A DNA stretch of 64,000 nt from Desulfomonilaceae bacterium (lineage in GTDB: Bacteria > Desulfobacterota > Desulfomonilia > Desulfomonilales > Desulfomonilaceae), in assembly GCA_031082285.1 (NCBI GenBank), contig JAVHLK010000009.1, positions 1 through 64,000 on the forward strand, read 5' to 3'. Of this stretch, positions 57,415-63,686 are shown piece after piece. Position 1 is the first letter of the stretch. Every line of letters starts with the position of its first letter. Under the pieces are notes generated by a model. The model searched no databases and was not told where the DNA came from. It worked only from the letters and a program-made list of their open reading frames with translations. Both the position numbers and the translations under genes were made by a program.

Positions 57415-59085
57415 CTATTTCTCTTTCTTGGACAACTCCATGGCCCGAAGTTCTTTCCGAAGGATCTTTCCCACCGCGCTTTTCGGGAGATCGTCAACAA
57501 ACTCCACATACTTCGGCACCTTGTACTTGACGAGATTCTCCTTGCAGTAATCGATGATTTCCTCAGCCGTCGCGGTCTCCCCTTTCTTGAGCACCACGAA
57601 AGCCTTGATCCTTTCTCCCGAATACGCGTCGGGCACGCCGATCACGCACGCCTCGACCACCTTAGGATGTGTAAAGAGCACCTCGTCCACATCTCTTGGG
57701 TAGATGTTGAAGCCTCCCGAGATGATCATGTCCTTCTTCCGGTCCACGATGCTGAAGAACCCGTCCTCGTCGAACACTGCGATGTCTCCCGTGAGAAACC
57801 ATCCGTCTCTTAAGGACGCGGCCGTTTCGTCCGGTCGGTTGATGTACCCCTTCATGACCTGGGGACCTTTGATGCAAATCTCGCCGGGTTCACCCGGAGT
57901 GTTGATCTCTCTATCGTAATTGTCGACATCGACGAGTTTCACATCGGTGTTCGGTATCGGCAAACCGATGGTTCCCGCTTTGGTAGTCGCACCGTAAGGA
58001 TTGATATGGGTTACCGGGCTTGTTTCGGTGAGCCCGTATCCCTCGCAGATCTGGGCGCCTGTGAGGCTCTCGAAATTGCGAATGGTTTCCATGGGGAGTG
58101 GTGCGCCTCCGGAGAAGCATCCCTTCAGCGACTTGAGACTGTATTTCTTGAGATCCGGAAAATTAATCATGCCGTTGTACAGTGTCGGCACCGCGGGCAT
58201 GTAGGTTGCCTTGTACTTGTCTATGGCATCGAGGATCGGTTTCGGCTCCGGCTTGGGTATGAGAATGGTTGCCCAGCCGTTCCAGATGCTGATGTTCATG
58301 GCCGTGGTCATGCCGAAGGAGTGAAAGAAGGGCAGGCACCCCACCGCGATCTCCTCGCCCTGATCGAAGCCCGGGAACCAGACAGTACTTTGCTGGCAGT
58401 TACTGGAGAGGTTGCCGTGGGTCAGCTGAACGCCCTTGGACACCCCCGTCGTGCCGCCGGTGTACAAGAGACATGCCGTATCGTCCCACTTCGGTTGGTA
58501 AGGCGCGTCAATGGGGGGGTACTTCTTGATGCACTCCATAAACTCGAGAACGTCCGCGGATGTCGCAACCTTCTTATGCATGTCCTTCTTCACGAATGGA
58601 AAGAGCTGCTTGAGAGGGAACGGCAGGAAGTCGCGGATGTGGCAGACAACGATCTTGGTTATGCCGGTCTTTTTTCGCAGCTCGATCATTCGAGGGGCCA
58701 GCAGATCCAATGAGATGAGGAAGGTGGAACCTGAATCGTTGAACTGGTGTTCCAGTTCTCGGTCGGTATAGAGCGGGTTATTCAGGGCGACGGTTGCGCC
58801 GGCCCTGAATGAACCGTATATTGCCACCACGTGCTGGACCAGGTTGGGTAGGAGCGTTGCCACTTTATCCCCGGGCTTGACCCCAATTGCCTTGAGCGCC
58901 GACGCAAATCGCGAGACCATGTCGTCGAGATTTCTATAGGTGATGGTCGCCCCCTGGAACAAGAGGGCCGGTCTGTCGGGGAAACGCTTGGCCGTTCTGC
59001 TCAGGGCTTCGGGCAAAGTGACTTTTTCAAAGTCCAGTTCCTTGGGAACCGCTTCATAGTACGATTTGAACCATATCTTTTCCAT
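57415..59085 (-). CDS. Long-chain acyl-CoA ligase (FadD-like)
   Basis: 556-aa AMP-forming acyl-CoA synthetase. The ATP/AMP signature LLYTGGTTGVSKG, GYGLTETSP, the hinge DRKKDMIISGGFNIYP and the C-terminal lysine region (LPKSAVGKILRKEL) are all present, so it should be active. It activates fatty acids with ATP and CoA. ATG 59085 has AAGGAG upstream; the open frame above it is unsupported. Monocistronic, convergent with uvrA. Confidence 0.88.
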   Translation of the reverse strand: MEKIWFKSYYEAVPKELDFEKVTLPEALSRTAKRFPDRPALLFQGATITYRNLDDMVSRFASALKAIGVKPGDKVATLLPNLVQHVVAIYGSFRAGATVALNNPLYTDRELEHQFNDSGSTFLISLDLLAPRMIELRKKTGITKIVVCHIRDFLPFPLKQLFPFVKKDMHKKVATSADVLEFMECIKKYPPIDAPYQPKWDDTACLLYTGGTTGVSKGVQLTHGNLSSNCQQSTVWFPGFDQGEEIAVGCLPFFHSFGMTTAMNISIWNGWATILIPKPEPKPILDAIDKYKATYMPAVPTLYNGMINFPDLKKYSLKSLKGCFSGGAPLPMETIRNFESLTGAQICEGYGLTETSPVTHINPYGATTKAGTIGLPIPNTDVKLVDVDNYDREINTPGEPGEICIKGPQVMKGYINRPDETAASLRDGWFLTGDIAVFDEDGFFSIVDRKKDMIISGGFNIYPRDVDEVLFTHPKVVEACVIGVPDAYSGERIKAFVVLKKGETATAEEIIDYCKENLVKYKVPKYVEFVDDLPKSAVGKILRKELRAMELSKKEK

Positions 59086-59401
59086 GTAACGCTCCTTACT
59101 GTCGTATACGAGGTGGTTGCAGCCGGGGGCCGCCACAGGGTCCACCGAACCGTCGCCCTGGTGAAATCACGAAGGGTTCCAATCGAGAGCGATCTCCGCT
59201 TCCCCACGTAAGAGCGGCTGGATCGGGTAAATCTGTCCGGGGTTTTCGGTGATTGGACTTCCCTCGGTCATCACGACGTCGACGATGTACCGTGGAACAT
59301 TCCGAAACACTAATTCTACACTAACATCGAAGAATATCCCAGGGAAAAAGCTGGGAAGCGGCATGCGTTTTGATAATGAATTCTGAGGCCCGGATGCTAT
59401 A
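59086..59401. other. Intergenic region
   Basis: About 315 bp between the divergent acyl-CoA ligase and membrane-protein genes; no further feature is recognised. Confidence 0.4.
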
Positions 59402-59914
59402 ATGCTCGCCATGCTTCGCATCATCATCCGCGAAATCATTGTGCTGGCCCTGTCTCTGGCAGTGTTTCCGGCCGTGGCCATCGTGCTGCTGTACTACACT
59501 GATTCTCTCGGGGCCGGGCTATCGGTGTTTTCTCACAGGCTGGATCTGGGAAGGACAGGGCCTGCCGGGATACCCATGGAGTTGTGGATCAGGATCGTCG
59601 CGCCGTACGCAATCGTCCAGGCCGTCCGAGCGTACGGATGGGCCCGCAGAAGTGAGACGGGAAGAAAATGGGCCAACCTCTATTTCGCCATGATCCTCGC
59701 GCTGCTCGGTGCGCGGTCTCTGTCCGAAGCGTGGGATTTGTTCTATTTCATGCATGCCATGGGCGACATGCCCGGAGAACTCGCGCAGTTCGTGCAACTG
59801 GAAGCGGTGAACCTGGTCATCGCCGTAGTCGCGTTCTCTCTGGGACTCCACTGTCTGTACGTCTTTGTGACCGGGGGGAAAAGACCACGGCCTCATGCCG
59901 GCCGGGTCGAATAG
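59402..59914 (+). CDS. Predicted inner-membrane protein
   Basis: 170-aa protein with about four hydrophobic segments (IIVLALSLAVFPAVAIVLLYY first; ANLYFAMILALLGA; NLVIAVVAFSLGLHCLYVFV). No family is recognised. The start may also be ATG 59411. It is divergent from the acyl-CoA ligase. Confidence 0.6.
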   Translation: MLAMLRIIIREIIVLALSLAVFPAVAIVLLYYTDSLGAGLSVFSHRLDLGRTGPAGIPMELWIRIVAPYAIVQAVRAYGWARRSETGRKWANLYFAMILALLGARSLSEAWDLFYFMHAMGDMPGELAQFVQLEAVNLVIAVVAFSLGLHCLYVFVTGGKRPRPHAGRVE

Positions 59915-60216: not shown

Positions 60217-62340
60217 TCACAAGATCGCAAGCTTCTCGTTGATGAGCCTGATCATTGCGATGTTTTCCGTGTGGCCGGTCTGCTTGGCAATGATCTTTCC
60301 GATGAAGGGGCGGCCCAACAGATAAAAGTCTCCGATGATGTCAAGAATCTTATGACGTACAAATTCGTCGGAAAATCTCAAGGGTGGATTGATGACCTTT
60401 TCGTCATCGAGGAGCACCACGTTTGAGAGTCTGCCGCCGCCGGCCAATCCCATTTCGTCCATCATTCTCATGTCCTTGACAAAGCCGAAGGTTCTTGCCG
60501 GGGCTATCTGTTCTTTGAAGTACTCCGGATCGCTGCACGGAAAGACCATGTGCATCTTACCCACGGGAGGCGGGTAGTCCAGGTAGTACTCGATCTCCAA
60601 GCAGTCCGAAGGTTCGATGCGCATGCTCTTGGGGCTGCCGGGGGGGAGGGGCAACTCTATGGGCTCCGTGATCCGGATCTCCTCAACGAGCTCATCCTGA
60701 TGCATGATTTCGGCGCTCTCTACCAGGCGGCAGAACTCAAGCGCGGATCCGTCCATAATGGGCACTTCGCCCGATATCTTCACCAGCACGTTGGTCAGAC
60801 CGTAGACGTGAAACACGGCCATAAGGTGCTCGATGGTCTTGGCAAGCGAGCCGTTGCTTCTCAGGCTTGTGGAATAGTCCGTCGATTCCACATTGTGTAC
60901 GATGGCGGGAACCGTCTCGGTGGAGGTGATGTGCCCAAAAAGGATCCCCGCGCTGGGGGGAAGCGGCAACAGGGTCAGGCCGGTCTTGTTGCCGGAGTGC
61001 AGCCCTTGACCGTACATCACGACCCGTCCCCGCAAAGTCTTTTGATGACGGAAGGGCGTCCCCACGGTCGATTCCGTCGCCGTCCCGGCGACCGTGCGGG
61101 GTTCGCCGGCCGAGCCTGCGTCATTGGCTCCGGACGTGGCGTGAGAAACGGGTTCCGGTTCCGATTGGGACAGTTTCCGGCTGCCCGCAGCGTCATCTTC
61201 TCCGGGGATGAGCAGATCGTTTACGGTAATGAGAGGACCCGGGGCCGTCATTACCACGTGCTCGATCAATATCTTCAGTTCCTTGACATTTCCGGGCCAG
61301 GAATAGGCAAGGAGCCGTTTCATGGCTTCTTCGTCCGTGCCCGCGATATCTCGCTCGAATTCCTCGACGGCCTCATTCAGAAAATGTTCGACGAAAAGCG
61401 GTATGTCTTCGGACCGTTCCCGCAGGGTCGGCAGCCTTACGATCCGTGTACTCAGCATGTCGATAAATTCCTGAGGGAATCCGGTCTTCCTGAGCAGAGT
61501 GTCCGGGGGAAGCTCCGAGGTTGAGATGATCCTGGCAGGTCCGCCCGGAAGTTGGAAAGCCCTGGAAGATCGTTCGAAGTGATCTCGAAGAATCTCGCCG
61601 AGTCGAGGCCTGAGACTCTTCTCGAGGCGATCCACTCGTACGAGAAGGAGCGTACCGCCGGCAGCCTGGGCGATCTTGCCGGGTCGCGCTTTCGCGGTGC
61701 CGTTGTCTTTGCCGAGCAACTCCTCGTCAATGGTATCCCGGGTCAGATCGGCGCAGCGAACCTTGATGAGACTGTTCCGATCCTTGCCCGATTTGGCGTG
61801 AATGATTCCCGCGGCGAATTCCTTACCGGTGCCTTTGTCCCCCGCGAGCCATACGGAACTCTCTTCCGCGACGGCATTGGCGAGTGCTCTCCGGAGACCC
61901 GCCGCCTTCTCGGAAAGACCTATGATCTGCCTCTGCACGACACTTGCGTCGGTTGCTACGGCGCCGGATGGCGTGCGAGCGGAGATTGCCTTTTCAACCA
62001 GGTGGAGTACGTCTTCCAAATTCAGAGGCTTCTCGAGGTAATCCCCGGCACCCAGTTTGATGGCTTTGACCGCGGTCTCTATCGTTCCGTGACCGCTCAT
62101 CATGATGACGGTGCATTGCGGGTCGATTTTCTTGATCGCCTTGAGGGTCTGCATTCCGTCAATGCCGGGGATCCAGACATCCAGGAACACGACGTCCGGG
62201 GAATCGCTCTGAACGATATGAAGGGCTTCCTGGCCTTCCCGCGCGAGGATGGTTTCGTGGCCCTCGTCGGCCAAAACGGCCTGGAGGGAGTCGAGAATTT
62301 CCTGCTGGTCGTCAACTATAAGTATTCGTCCCTTATCCAT
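60217..62340 (-). CDS. lpxC: Response regulator / degenerate AAA+ / LpxC fusion
   Basis: 707-aa fusion. Residues 1-120 are a receiver with all key residues (Asp10-Asp11 pair, phospho-acceptor Asp54, Ser82, Lys104). Residues 140-385 resemble the sigma-54-activator AAA+ domain: Walker A GDKGTGKE is intact, but GAFTGA is replaced (NGTAKA) and Walker B has lost its acidic pair (LLLVRV). A Ser/Gly-rich linker (385-428) leads to a full LpxC domain (429-707) instead of a Fis-type HTH: zinc ligands His505, His663, Asp667, and catalytic Glu504, Asp671 and His690 all present. LpxC deacetylates UDP-3-O-acyl-GlcNAc, the committed step of lipid A synthesis. Phosphorylation-controlled LpxC is an inference. 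Same strand as no neighbour; monocistronic. Confidence 0.9.
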   Translation of the reverse strand: MDKGRILIVDDQQEILDSLQAVLADEGHETILAREGQEALHIVQSDSPDVVFLDVWIPGIDGMQTLKAIKKIDPQCTVIMMSGHGTIETAVKAIKLGAGDYLEKPLNLEDVLHLVEKAISARTPSGAVATDASVVQRQIIGLSEKAAGLRRALANAVAEESSVWLAGDKGTGKEFAAGIIHAKSGKDRNSLIKVRCADLTRDTIDEELLGKDNGTAKARPGKIAQAAGGTLLLVRVDRLEKSLRPRLGEILRDHFERSSRAFQLPGGPARIISTSELPPDTLLRKTGFPQEFIDMLSTRIVRLPTLRERSEDIPLFVEHFLNEAVEEFERDIAGTDEEAMKRLLAYSWPGNVKELKILIEHVVMTAPGPLITVNDLLIPGEDDAAGSRKLSQSEPEPVSHATSGANDAGSAGEPRTVAGTATESTVGTPFRHQKTLRGRVVMYGQGLHSGNKTGLTLLPLPPSAGILFGHITSTETVPAIVHNVESTDYSTSLRSNGSLAKTIEHLMAVFHVYGLTNVLVKISGEVPIMDGSALEFCRLVESAEIMHQDELVEEIRITEPIELPLPPGSPKSMRIEPSDCLEIEYYLDYPPPVGKMHMVFPCSDPEYFKEQIAPARTFGFVKDMRMMDEMGLAGGGRLSNVVLLDDEKVINPPLRFSDEFVRHKILDIIGDFYLLGRPFIGKIIAKQTGHTENIAMIRLINEKLAIL

Positions 62341-62435
62341 AATCGACTCATATTATCTTCTTCGTCCGGTCCAGGCAACCAAAAATTGAACGAACGCTAA
62401 GTACAGGATTTTAGAGTTTTAGTTACGTGTGTTGC

Positions 62436-62545
62436 GCGATGAGATTGCTTTCCCGCGTTCTTCGCGGGATTCCACTCCTCGCAATGACATGGTACGCGTT
62501 GTCATTGCGAGGGCGAAGCCCGCGGCAATCTCGACGGACAAAGAA
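62436..62545. repeat. Long inverted repeat of the 'cattgcgag' type
   Basis: tgagattgctttcccgcg ... ctcgcaatgaca is followed by tgtcattgcgag ... gcggcaatctcga, making an imperfect inverted repeat of ~50-bp arms. The gap 62341-62802 shows no gene. Confidence 0.7.
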
Positions 62546-62802
62546 TGCGAAACCGTATTCACGAAATCGACTACTCAGCATTCCGTGTCACGAGGGAGAA
62601 CAGTTTTCCGGTGCCCGACGGCGCGAGCGACCTGAAGCAACCGCGTTGCTTTGACCGTGCACGAAGAGTGATTACTTCGTCGCTCCTTTTCACGCAATGA
62701 CGAGTTGGACGTTGCCGGCTTTCAGCGCACGAGCCGACGGCCACACCATCCGATGTGCGGGCCTGCATGCTCGCCTGCGATGTCCGATCCCCGTACGTAC
62801 GG

Positions 62803-63162
62803 CTATTTCACGCTCGTGTCCGCGTCATGGCTCTTCTCGGGGGCCAGCCCGTGATTGCCGGGCGTACTCTGGAGAATGTGTTGAAATCTCCGATACCCCC
62901 TTACCGTCCGAGACTGCGCGGAAATGTGTCCGAACACGGCGTCGCCGTCTCCGTTGATCTGCGCCGGGAACACGGTTTCGTCCGGCGGTCCGACAGTCGA
63001 AGCCACGACGCGTTCGATGTTCGCCGAAGGTCCGACCTGCGGGGACGATTCCACCGCCGGACACGCATTCGGCCTCATCCACATGAAGAGGACTAATACG
63101 GCGATAGTTCCTCCAAGCCTTGCCGTTGAGCAGTGAGCCTTAAGACGGGAAAAATCCATGAA
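62803..63162 (-). CDS. Possible small exported protein
   Basis: 119-aa frame with a plausible signal anchor (LGGTIAVLVLFMWM) and an AAGGAT upstream of ATG 63162. The mature part has no recognised motif. Open frames occur on the other strand as well, so this may be a chance frame; coding is only moderately likely. Confidence 0.35.
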   Translation of the reverse strand, partial: FMDFSRLKAHCSTARLGGTIAVLVLFMWMRPNACPAVESSPQVGPSANIERVVASTVGPPDETVFPAQINGDGDAVFGHISAQSRTVRGYRRFQHILQSTPGNHGLAPEKSHDADTSVK

Positions 63163-63686
63163 CAAGATCCTTATTTCGCTCTCCGGGATGTTCCGACGAT
63201 CCGGGATGAGGCCGACCGTTGAAGAGGCTGCCGAGTCCGTTGCGCACCGGCTCGCTCTCGGCCGCATGCATGCGGCAGCCGCGGTATATCACATTTTCAT
63301 AGTTATAAAAGGAAAAACGCATCGACCGAGTATGCATTCAGTCACGAACCGCAGGTCGAATAGAATGTGTTGATTATAAGGAGCGGAGCGACCCCGCGAT
63401 CCTTTCTTCCTCCCGCATAAGACTTTTTCACTCCGTTCGCAACGACGGTTGCACGAAAGATCTTTTCTCGGGCGAGGCAAAATGCCGGCAAGAGAGGATC
63501 CGCTCGAAGCCCTGTCGAGTATCTTTTCCTCTTGCAAATCCTCGTTTGCACAAGTAAGATTCGGTTTCTGCCGGCGTTCCCGTTAAAATCCTGTCTTGAA
63601 ACACGTACTGAGGAACCTTCAGGTTCCGGAATCTTGCTCGGTGTGTGGCAAATCTGCGAGCCGAAGGGATTGGAGGCAATCGTTCT
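63163..63686. other. Intergenic region upstream of sucC
   Basis: Contains a hairpin at 63612-63627 (GGAACCT-TC-AGGTTCC) and an AT-rich patch (63290-63310, ttttcatagttataaaagg). No gene can be supported. Confidence 0.45.
63612..63627. promoter_or_regulatory. Short inverted repeat upstream of sucC
   Basis: GGAACCT (63612-63618), TC, AGGTTCC (63621-63627): perfect 7-bp arms, 60 bp upstream of the sucC start. Possible operator or leader hairpin. Confidence 0.35.

Follow-up and report, generated by a model that had tools for sequence, protein, structure and literature searches.

The window analyzed here, a 64,000-nt stretch of Desulfomonilaceae DNA, contains a gene in which an NtrX-type receiver is joined to a complete LpxC. 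The gene is a single unbroken ORF of 707 aa (positions 60217-62340) on the minus strand, a strand left unstated in the sequence-only reading of this DNA, and its product consists, from N- to C-terminus, of a receiver, a degenerate NtrC-type AAA+ domain, a disordered linker and a full LpxC. LpxC, a target of antibiotics, catalyzes the committed step of lipid A synthesis, and the controls known for it so far are proteolysis, protein partners and transcription. The NtrX::LpxC fusion is genuine and not an assembly artefact. It probably belongs to a two-component system that has this enzyme as its output and in which the fused protein would be phosphorylated by the kinase NtrY. The features of the gene were as follows.

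60217..62340, minus strand: the fused gene in full, its 707-aa product running from an NtrX-type receiver through a degenerate AAA+ and a linker to LpxC (ORF, Pfam); shared by all same-family genomes in which an LpxC was matched
61996..62325, minus strand: receiver of NtrX type, residues 6-115, with Asp10/11, Asp54, Ser82 and Lys104 (Pfam, residue scoring)
62179..62181, minus strand: codon of the phospho-acceptor Asp54 (translation, alignment)
61423..61926, minus strand: degenerate sigma54-type AAA+ core, residues 139-306 (Pfam, motif scoring)
61822..61842, minus strand: intact Walker A, GDKGTGK, residues 167-173 (translation, alignment)
61633..61653, minus strand: former Walker B strand, residues 230-236, with the acidic pair gone and GAFTGA missing just ahead (alignment; model strand 230-234)
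61213..61422, minus strand: AAA+ lid, residues 307-376 (Pfam)
61057..61200, minus strand: disordered linker, residues 381-428, where a Fis-type DNA-binding domain would stand (pLDDT, identity, no HTH)
60235..61044, minus strand: full LpxC deacetylase domain, residues 433-702 (Pfam, NCBIfam, PDB fold matches)
60826..60828, minus strand: zinc ligand His505, invariant in 105 aligned fused LpxC domains
60340..60354, minus strand: zinc ligands His663 and Asp667, invariant in the same 105 domains

The Pfam scan of the 707-aa protein returned Response_reg at residues 6-115 (8e-30), Sigma54_activat at 139-253 (3e-16), AAA_lid_14 at 307-376 (2e-21) and LpxC at 433-700 (3e-78), and it detected no DNA-binding domain (HTH). 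The residues picked out in the sequence-only reading were all found again. Translation and alignment showed the receiver with Asp54, Ser82 and Lys104, to which Asp10/11 can be added; the AAA+ domain kept Walker A (GDKGTGK) and was without GAFTGA and the Walker B acids (the Walker B position reads LLLVRVDR); and the LpxC domain was complete, with Glu504 and His690 besides His505, His663 and Asp667. In the window genome (99.9% complete) a search for a stand-alone lpxC found no second LpxC, the fused protein being the only one, and LpxB and LpxK were also present. Each of the 16 further same-family genomes with an LpxC match likewise had an ORF of ~700 residues as its only LpxC. Because the fused gene recurs in all genomes of the family that gave an LpxC match, a sequencing error joining two genes, the refutation feared earlier, is excluded. 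The same joined reading frame recurred in independent genomes of many genera and several phyla, nothing was found in favor of an artefact of assembly or sequencing that merges two genes, and the chance of one is negligible. The fused gene adjoins a probable membrane protein of 170 aa (59402-59914, plus strand) and an acyl-CoA-ligase-like gene (57415-59145, minus strand), both kept in most same-family genomes; the ~0.9 kb upstream of it (62400-63300) holds no convincing gene and offers space for a promoter region of its own.

The LpxC domain of the window protein scored 263 bits with PF03331 (cut-off 27) and passed the NCBIfam equivalog TIGR00325 (209 bits vs. a cut-off of 187). Residues E504, H505, T617, H663, D667 and H690 correspond to E. 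coli E78, H79, T191, H238, D242 and H265. No zinc ligand and none of the catalytic Glu, Lys, Asp and His residues was replaced in any of the 105 fused LpxC domains aligned; a divergent member of this set, L227, differs at Thr617 and His448 (GLHSG motif). The model of the domain matched LpxC entries of the PDB (TM up to 0.91 by target length, rmsd ~2.5). Because the catalytic residues are present and the fused gene is the sole LpxC of its genome, the fused LpxC is predicted to catalyze deacetylation. After a fixed anchor, the C-terminal tail had a median of 17-18 residues in fused LpxC vs. 44 in stand-alone LpxC. L227 and L087 represent a divergent branch without an AAA+ domain (REC-LpxC), with GLMSG/GLLSG in place of GLHSG and ARSFNTF in place of ARTFGF. 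Two genomes of this branch (G242 and G284) also hold a stand-alone LpxC, and its fused proteins may therefore serve another role. Another genome (G418) contained two separate fused REC-LpxC genes.

All 94 fused receivers scored kept the acidic pair, the phospho-Asp and Lys104, residue 82 was Ser or Thr in each of them, and the residue set of a phosphorylatable receiver (acidic pair, phospho-Asp, Ser/Thr, Lys) was complete in the window protein. In all 44 fused receivers compared, identity to an NtrX exceeded that to the four other regulators of the comparison set (mean identity 51 vs. 38%). An NtrX receiver profile was also run on the surroundings of the regulators and receivers that scored best in the window genome (loci L276-L335); among the 59 frames it matched, the fused protein ranked first (148.5 vs. 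112.1 bits for the next). For the N-terminal half of the model, Brucella NtrX was the structure in the PDB that matched best by fold. The NtrX equivalog was the best NCBIfam match by bits, at 250.9 bits and below its cut-off of 600, and the Fis-type C-terminal DNA-binding domain of NtrX was missing in the window protein. By these sequence comparisons the fused receiver is of the NtrX type. A tree of receiver plus AAA+ put the fused proteins on one branch side; it was distorted by the fast divergence of AAA+ and was rejected as proof of NtrX, so that the assignment to NtrX is based on the percent identity of the receiver, its profile score and the gene linkage.

An LpxC-domain profile made from fused proteins (A1) was run on 395 genomes of the phylum, 362 of which had a match, and it split the LpxCs of the phylum into two populations. 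High A1 scores, nearly all in ORFs longer than 410 residues, were found in approximately 90 of the 362 LpxC-bearing genomes sampled (hand count), and most of the remaining genomes showed lower scores in ORFs of ~300 residues. Beyond the phylum, a profile scan of genome contigs found fusions in MAG records named Acidobacteriota, Thermoanaerobaculia, Nitrospinota, Binatota and Thermodesulfovibrionia. Environmental bacteria of several groups carry the fusion. In a quick tree of 102 LpxC domains, made without bootstrap, the 65 fused domains formed one clade vs. the 37 stand-alone domains (SH-aLRT 100). The fused forms with AAA+ (22) and without it (43 REC-LpxC) were interleaved on this tree, and therefore a single fusion event followed by repeated loss of AAA+ would be the simplest reading, not a proof. 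The very long ORFs at L202, L217, L223 and L073, which at first sight suggested extra fused domains, are better explained as out-of-frame sequence ahead of the true start; at L202 and L217 the NtrY gene overlaps the extension. In a phage collection, tblastn with the window protein gave no match covering 80% of the query, and the matches listed were ordinary regulators. In part of the REC-LpxC group (L051, L168 and relatives), an HTH-like gene of ~140 aa followed the fusion on the same strand.

At 33 fused loci, two of which are apparently one contig, the gene of an NtrY-like kinase immediately preceded the fused gene in the same orientation, in most cases at a distance of no more than ~140 bp. 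The one kinase scanned (L050) had HAMP, PAS, HisKA and HATPase domains and was preceded by a DUF4390 gene. In unfused genomes, the kinase and a stand-alone lpxC were at most 2.2 kb apart in 27 of the 37 lpxC-ntrY pairs among the matches listed, a non-random sample. Most of the 20 unfused loci fetched had lpxC, often DUF4390, ntrY and often ntrX consecutively; a sister family in the class of the window had the order lpxC-ntrY-ntrX, and lpxC-ntrY pairs were also present in Rokubacteria and Acidobacteria. Loci L254-L271 show the conserved lpxC-(DUF4390)-ntrY-ntrX cluster, which recurs in many genomes whose LpxC stands alone. The link between NtrYX and lpxC may predate the fusion, and the gene order suggests the lpxC-ntrY-ntrX cluster as its source. 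Neither this cluster nor the specific identity of the regulator had been noticed in the sequence-only reading. In the family of the window, ntrY was unlinked to the fused gene, which does not stand next to it there, and for this reason we infer the partnership of NtrY and the fusion in that family. One NtrY ortholog scored far above the next kinase in all six same-family genomes tested (856 vs. 188 bits in the window genome), and no receiver/AAA+ gene matching the fused protein was found within ~8 kb on each side of this orphan NtrY in the six genomes. Because most genomes of the phylum have NtrY, whether their LpxC is fused or not, co-occurrence with NtrY does not discriminate and was dropped as evidence.

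Gene linkage and receiver type together point to NtrY as the kinase of the fused protein. According to the mechanism proposed, NtrY, a membrane sensor kinase encoded elsewhere in the window genome, would phosphorylate Asp54, and the phosphorylated receiver would alter the activity of the attached LpxC (its stability being the less likely target), either by docking on LpxC or by shifting its oligomeric state. The AAA+ part would be a leftover in decay, at most a bridge between receiver and LpxC. The idea that LpxC behind the receiver replaces a DNA-binding output was supported, with the receiver residues kept in all proteins scored and a partner kinase, NtrY, identifiable. An effect of phosphorylation on LpxC appears probable, and by analogy with NtrYX of Rhodobacter phosphorylation may restrain the enzyme: loss of NtrYX there raised the lpxC transcript 8.8-fold and LPS approximately two-fold (PMC7240162, PMC12444477). 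The effect of NtrX on lpxC in Rhodobacter is at the transcript level and apparently indirect (PMC7240162), which counts against the mechanism proposed, and the conserved receiver residues could also serve dimerisation or localisation. The full-length model of the 707-aa protein had a pTM of 0.47, and therefore no domain orientation was readable for the window protein and only single domains were compared by fold. The model of a REC-LpxC protein (L060) reached a pTM of 0.85 and is compatible with a preferred mutual orientation of its two domains. A wider reading, about evenly balanced between right and wrong, is that an envelope-sensing NtrY would set lipid A synthesis by direct allostery without a transcription step, and that an NtrX::LpxC of single origin would have spread through several phyla and shed its AAA+ and DNA-binding parts to leave a minimal REC-LpxC switch.

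Two alternatives assign a function to the middle of the protein. The sequence-only reading had suggested that nucleotide binding to the AAA+ domain sets LPS synthesis, the degenerate domain sensing ATP/ADP and gating LpxC. Walker A was indeed retained in nearly all AAA+-containing fusions, and Brucella NtrX has been solved structurally with ATP and with ADP; the Walker B acids, however, were gone in the family of the window. Mean pairwise identity within this family fell from 84% in the receiver and 76% in LpxC to 64% in the AAA+ lid, 42% in the AAA+ core and 12% in the linker; judged by these values, the receiver is the most strictly conserved domain and the AAA+ core is the fastest-changing folded part. 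When the window genome was scanned with PF00158, the fused AAA+ scored 64 bits and the 52 other matches scored 200-250 bits. Because most fusions (43 of the 65 on the tree) are without the domain, nucleotide sensing by AAA+ is very improbable as the mechanism common to the fusions. Still less credible is that the fused protein remains a DNA-binding regulator with LpxC as a second function. In one homologous AAA+ fusion (L067) an HTH_8 of the Fis type still scores between AAA+ and LpxC, and sequence resembling a Fis-type helix, judged by eye, precedes LpxC in L049 and L050. Against this stand the linker of the window protein, which has no HTH and is disordered (pLDDT <50 at residues 383-427 in the 707-aa model), and the marks of a functional NtrC-family sigma-54 activator, GAFTGA and the Walker B acids: both were absent in the window protein, and GAFTGA was found in none of the AAA+-containing fusions scored.

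The two other alternatives concern what the receiver does. It might set the amount of LpxC, phosphorylation exposing the fusion to a protease or hiding it, in place of the LapB/FtsH-type control of E. coli. Stability control is a live rival because the fused enzymes are without the tail of most stand-alone LpxCs, and the C-terminal end of E. coli LpxC is needed for degradation by FtsH according to a reference cited in PMC3333781. The disordered linker of the model could hold a degron, but no degron was identified in the fused protein, some stand-alone LpxCs are equally short after the anchor (19 residues) and the REC-LpxC form is modelled at high pTM; on balance this explanation is unlikely. 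Slightly less likely again is a constitutive receiver, a module for dimerisation or membrane recruitment that keeps LpxC close to NtrY or to further enzymes of the Lpx pathway, with phosphorylation incidental. The receivers of NtrC-type regulators dimerise and NtrY is a membrane kinase, both of which fit such a module. Nevertheless, Asp54, Ser/Thr82, Lys104 and the acidic pair were invariant in all receivers scored, and because the receiver is also the most conserved domain within the family of the window, retained phosphorylation chemistry is indicated.

Response regulators with enzymatic outputs exist (CheB, GGDEF and HD-GYP types), and the outputs known so far are mostly signalling enzymes. 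The fusion resembles these types in that a catalytic output takes the place of the DNA-binding one behind the receiver and differs from them in that its output is a committed biosynthetic enzyme; LpxC as output domain is what is new, and response regulators whose output is an enzyme are of a kind already known. With stand-alone LpxC of E. coli, Pseudomonas and Aquifex it shares the full domain, the fold, the zinc ligands and the catalytic residues, whereas the fused LpxC sits behind a receiver, is without the C-terminal tail and forms its own clade. LpxC-FabZ also has LpxC inside a larger polypeptide, but there the partner, FabZ, is a metabolic enzyme and here it is a signalling domain (the LpxC-FabZ model NF009667/PRK13188 matched the window LpxC domain at 175 bits, under its cut-off of 465). 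The NtrY/NtrX systems of Brucella, Rhodobacter and Caulobacter share the receiver type, the AAA+ fold, the NtrY operon in relatives and the link to lpxC and LPS; known NtrX, in contrast, is a DNA-binding protein that affects the lpxC transcript, apparently by an indirect route (PMC7240162), whereas the fusion has LpxC within the regulator. DVU2934, a two-component regulator of Desulfovibrio vulgaris, had a single DAP-chip target, lpxC, and in Syntrophobacter fumaroxidans lpxC adjoins the operon of the orthologous regulator (PMC3333781); unlike an LpxC fused to a receiver, DVU2934 works on the lpxC promoter as a DNA-binding protein of its own. No description of a receiver-LpxC fusion was found in the open-access literature on LpxC, response regulators and NtrX/NtrYX, and domain databases may list the architecture uncommented; in a 2025 review of lipid A regulation, no mention of fusions or response regulators was found.

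As a gene fusion that has been conserved, it is evidence for joint action of NtrY/NtrX and LpxC, a partnership that, if true, would help to explain the altered LPS of NtrYX mutants elsewhere. REC-LpxC, with two domains in ~430 residues, makes the question of this partnership directly testable. Because LpxC and the NtrX receiver share one protein, a sensor of the envelope could adjust the synthesis of the outer membrane without a detour, which would bypass both genes and protein breakdown.
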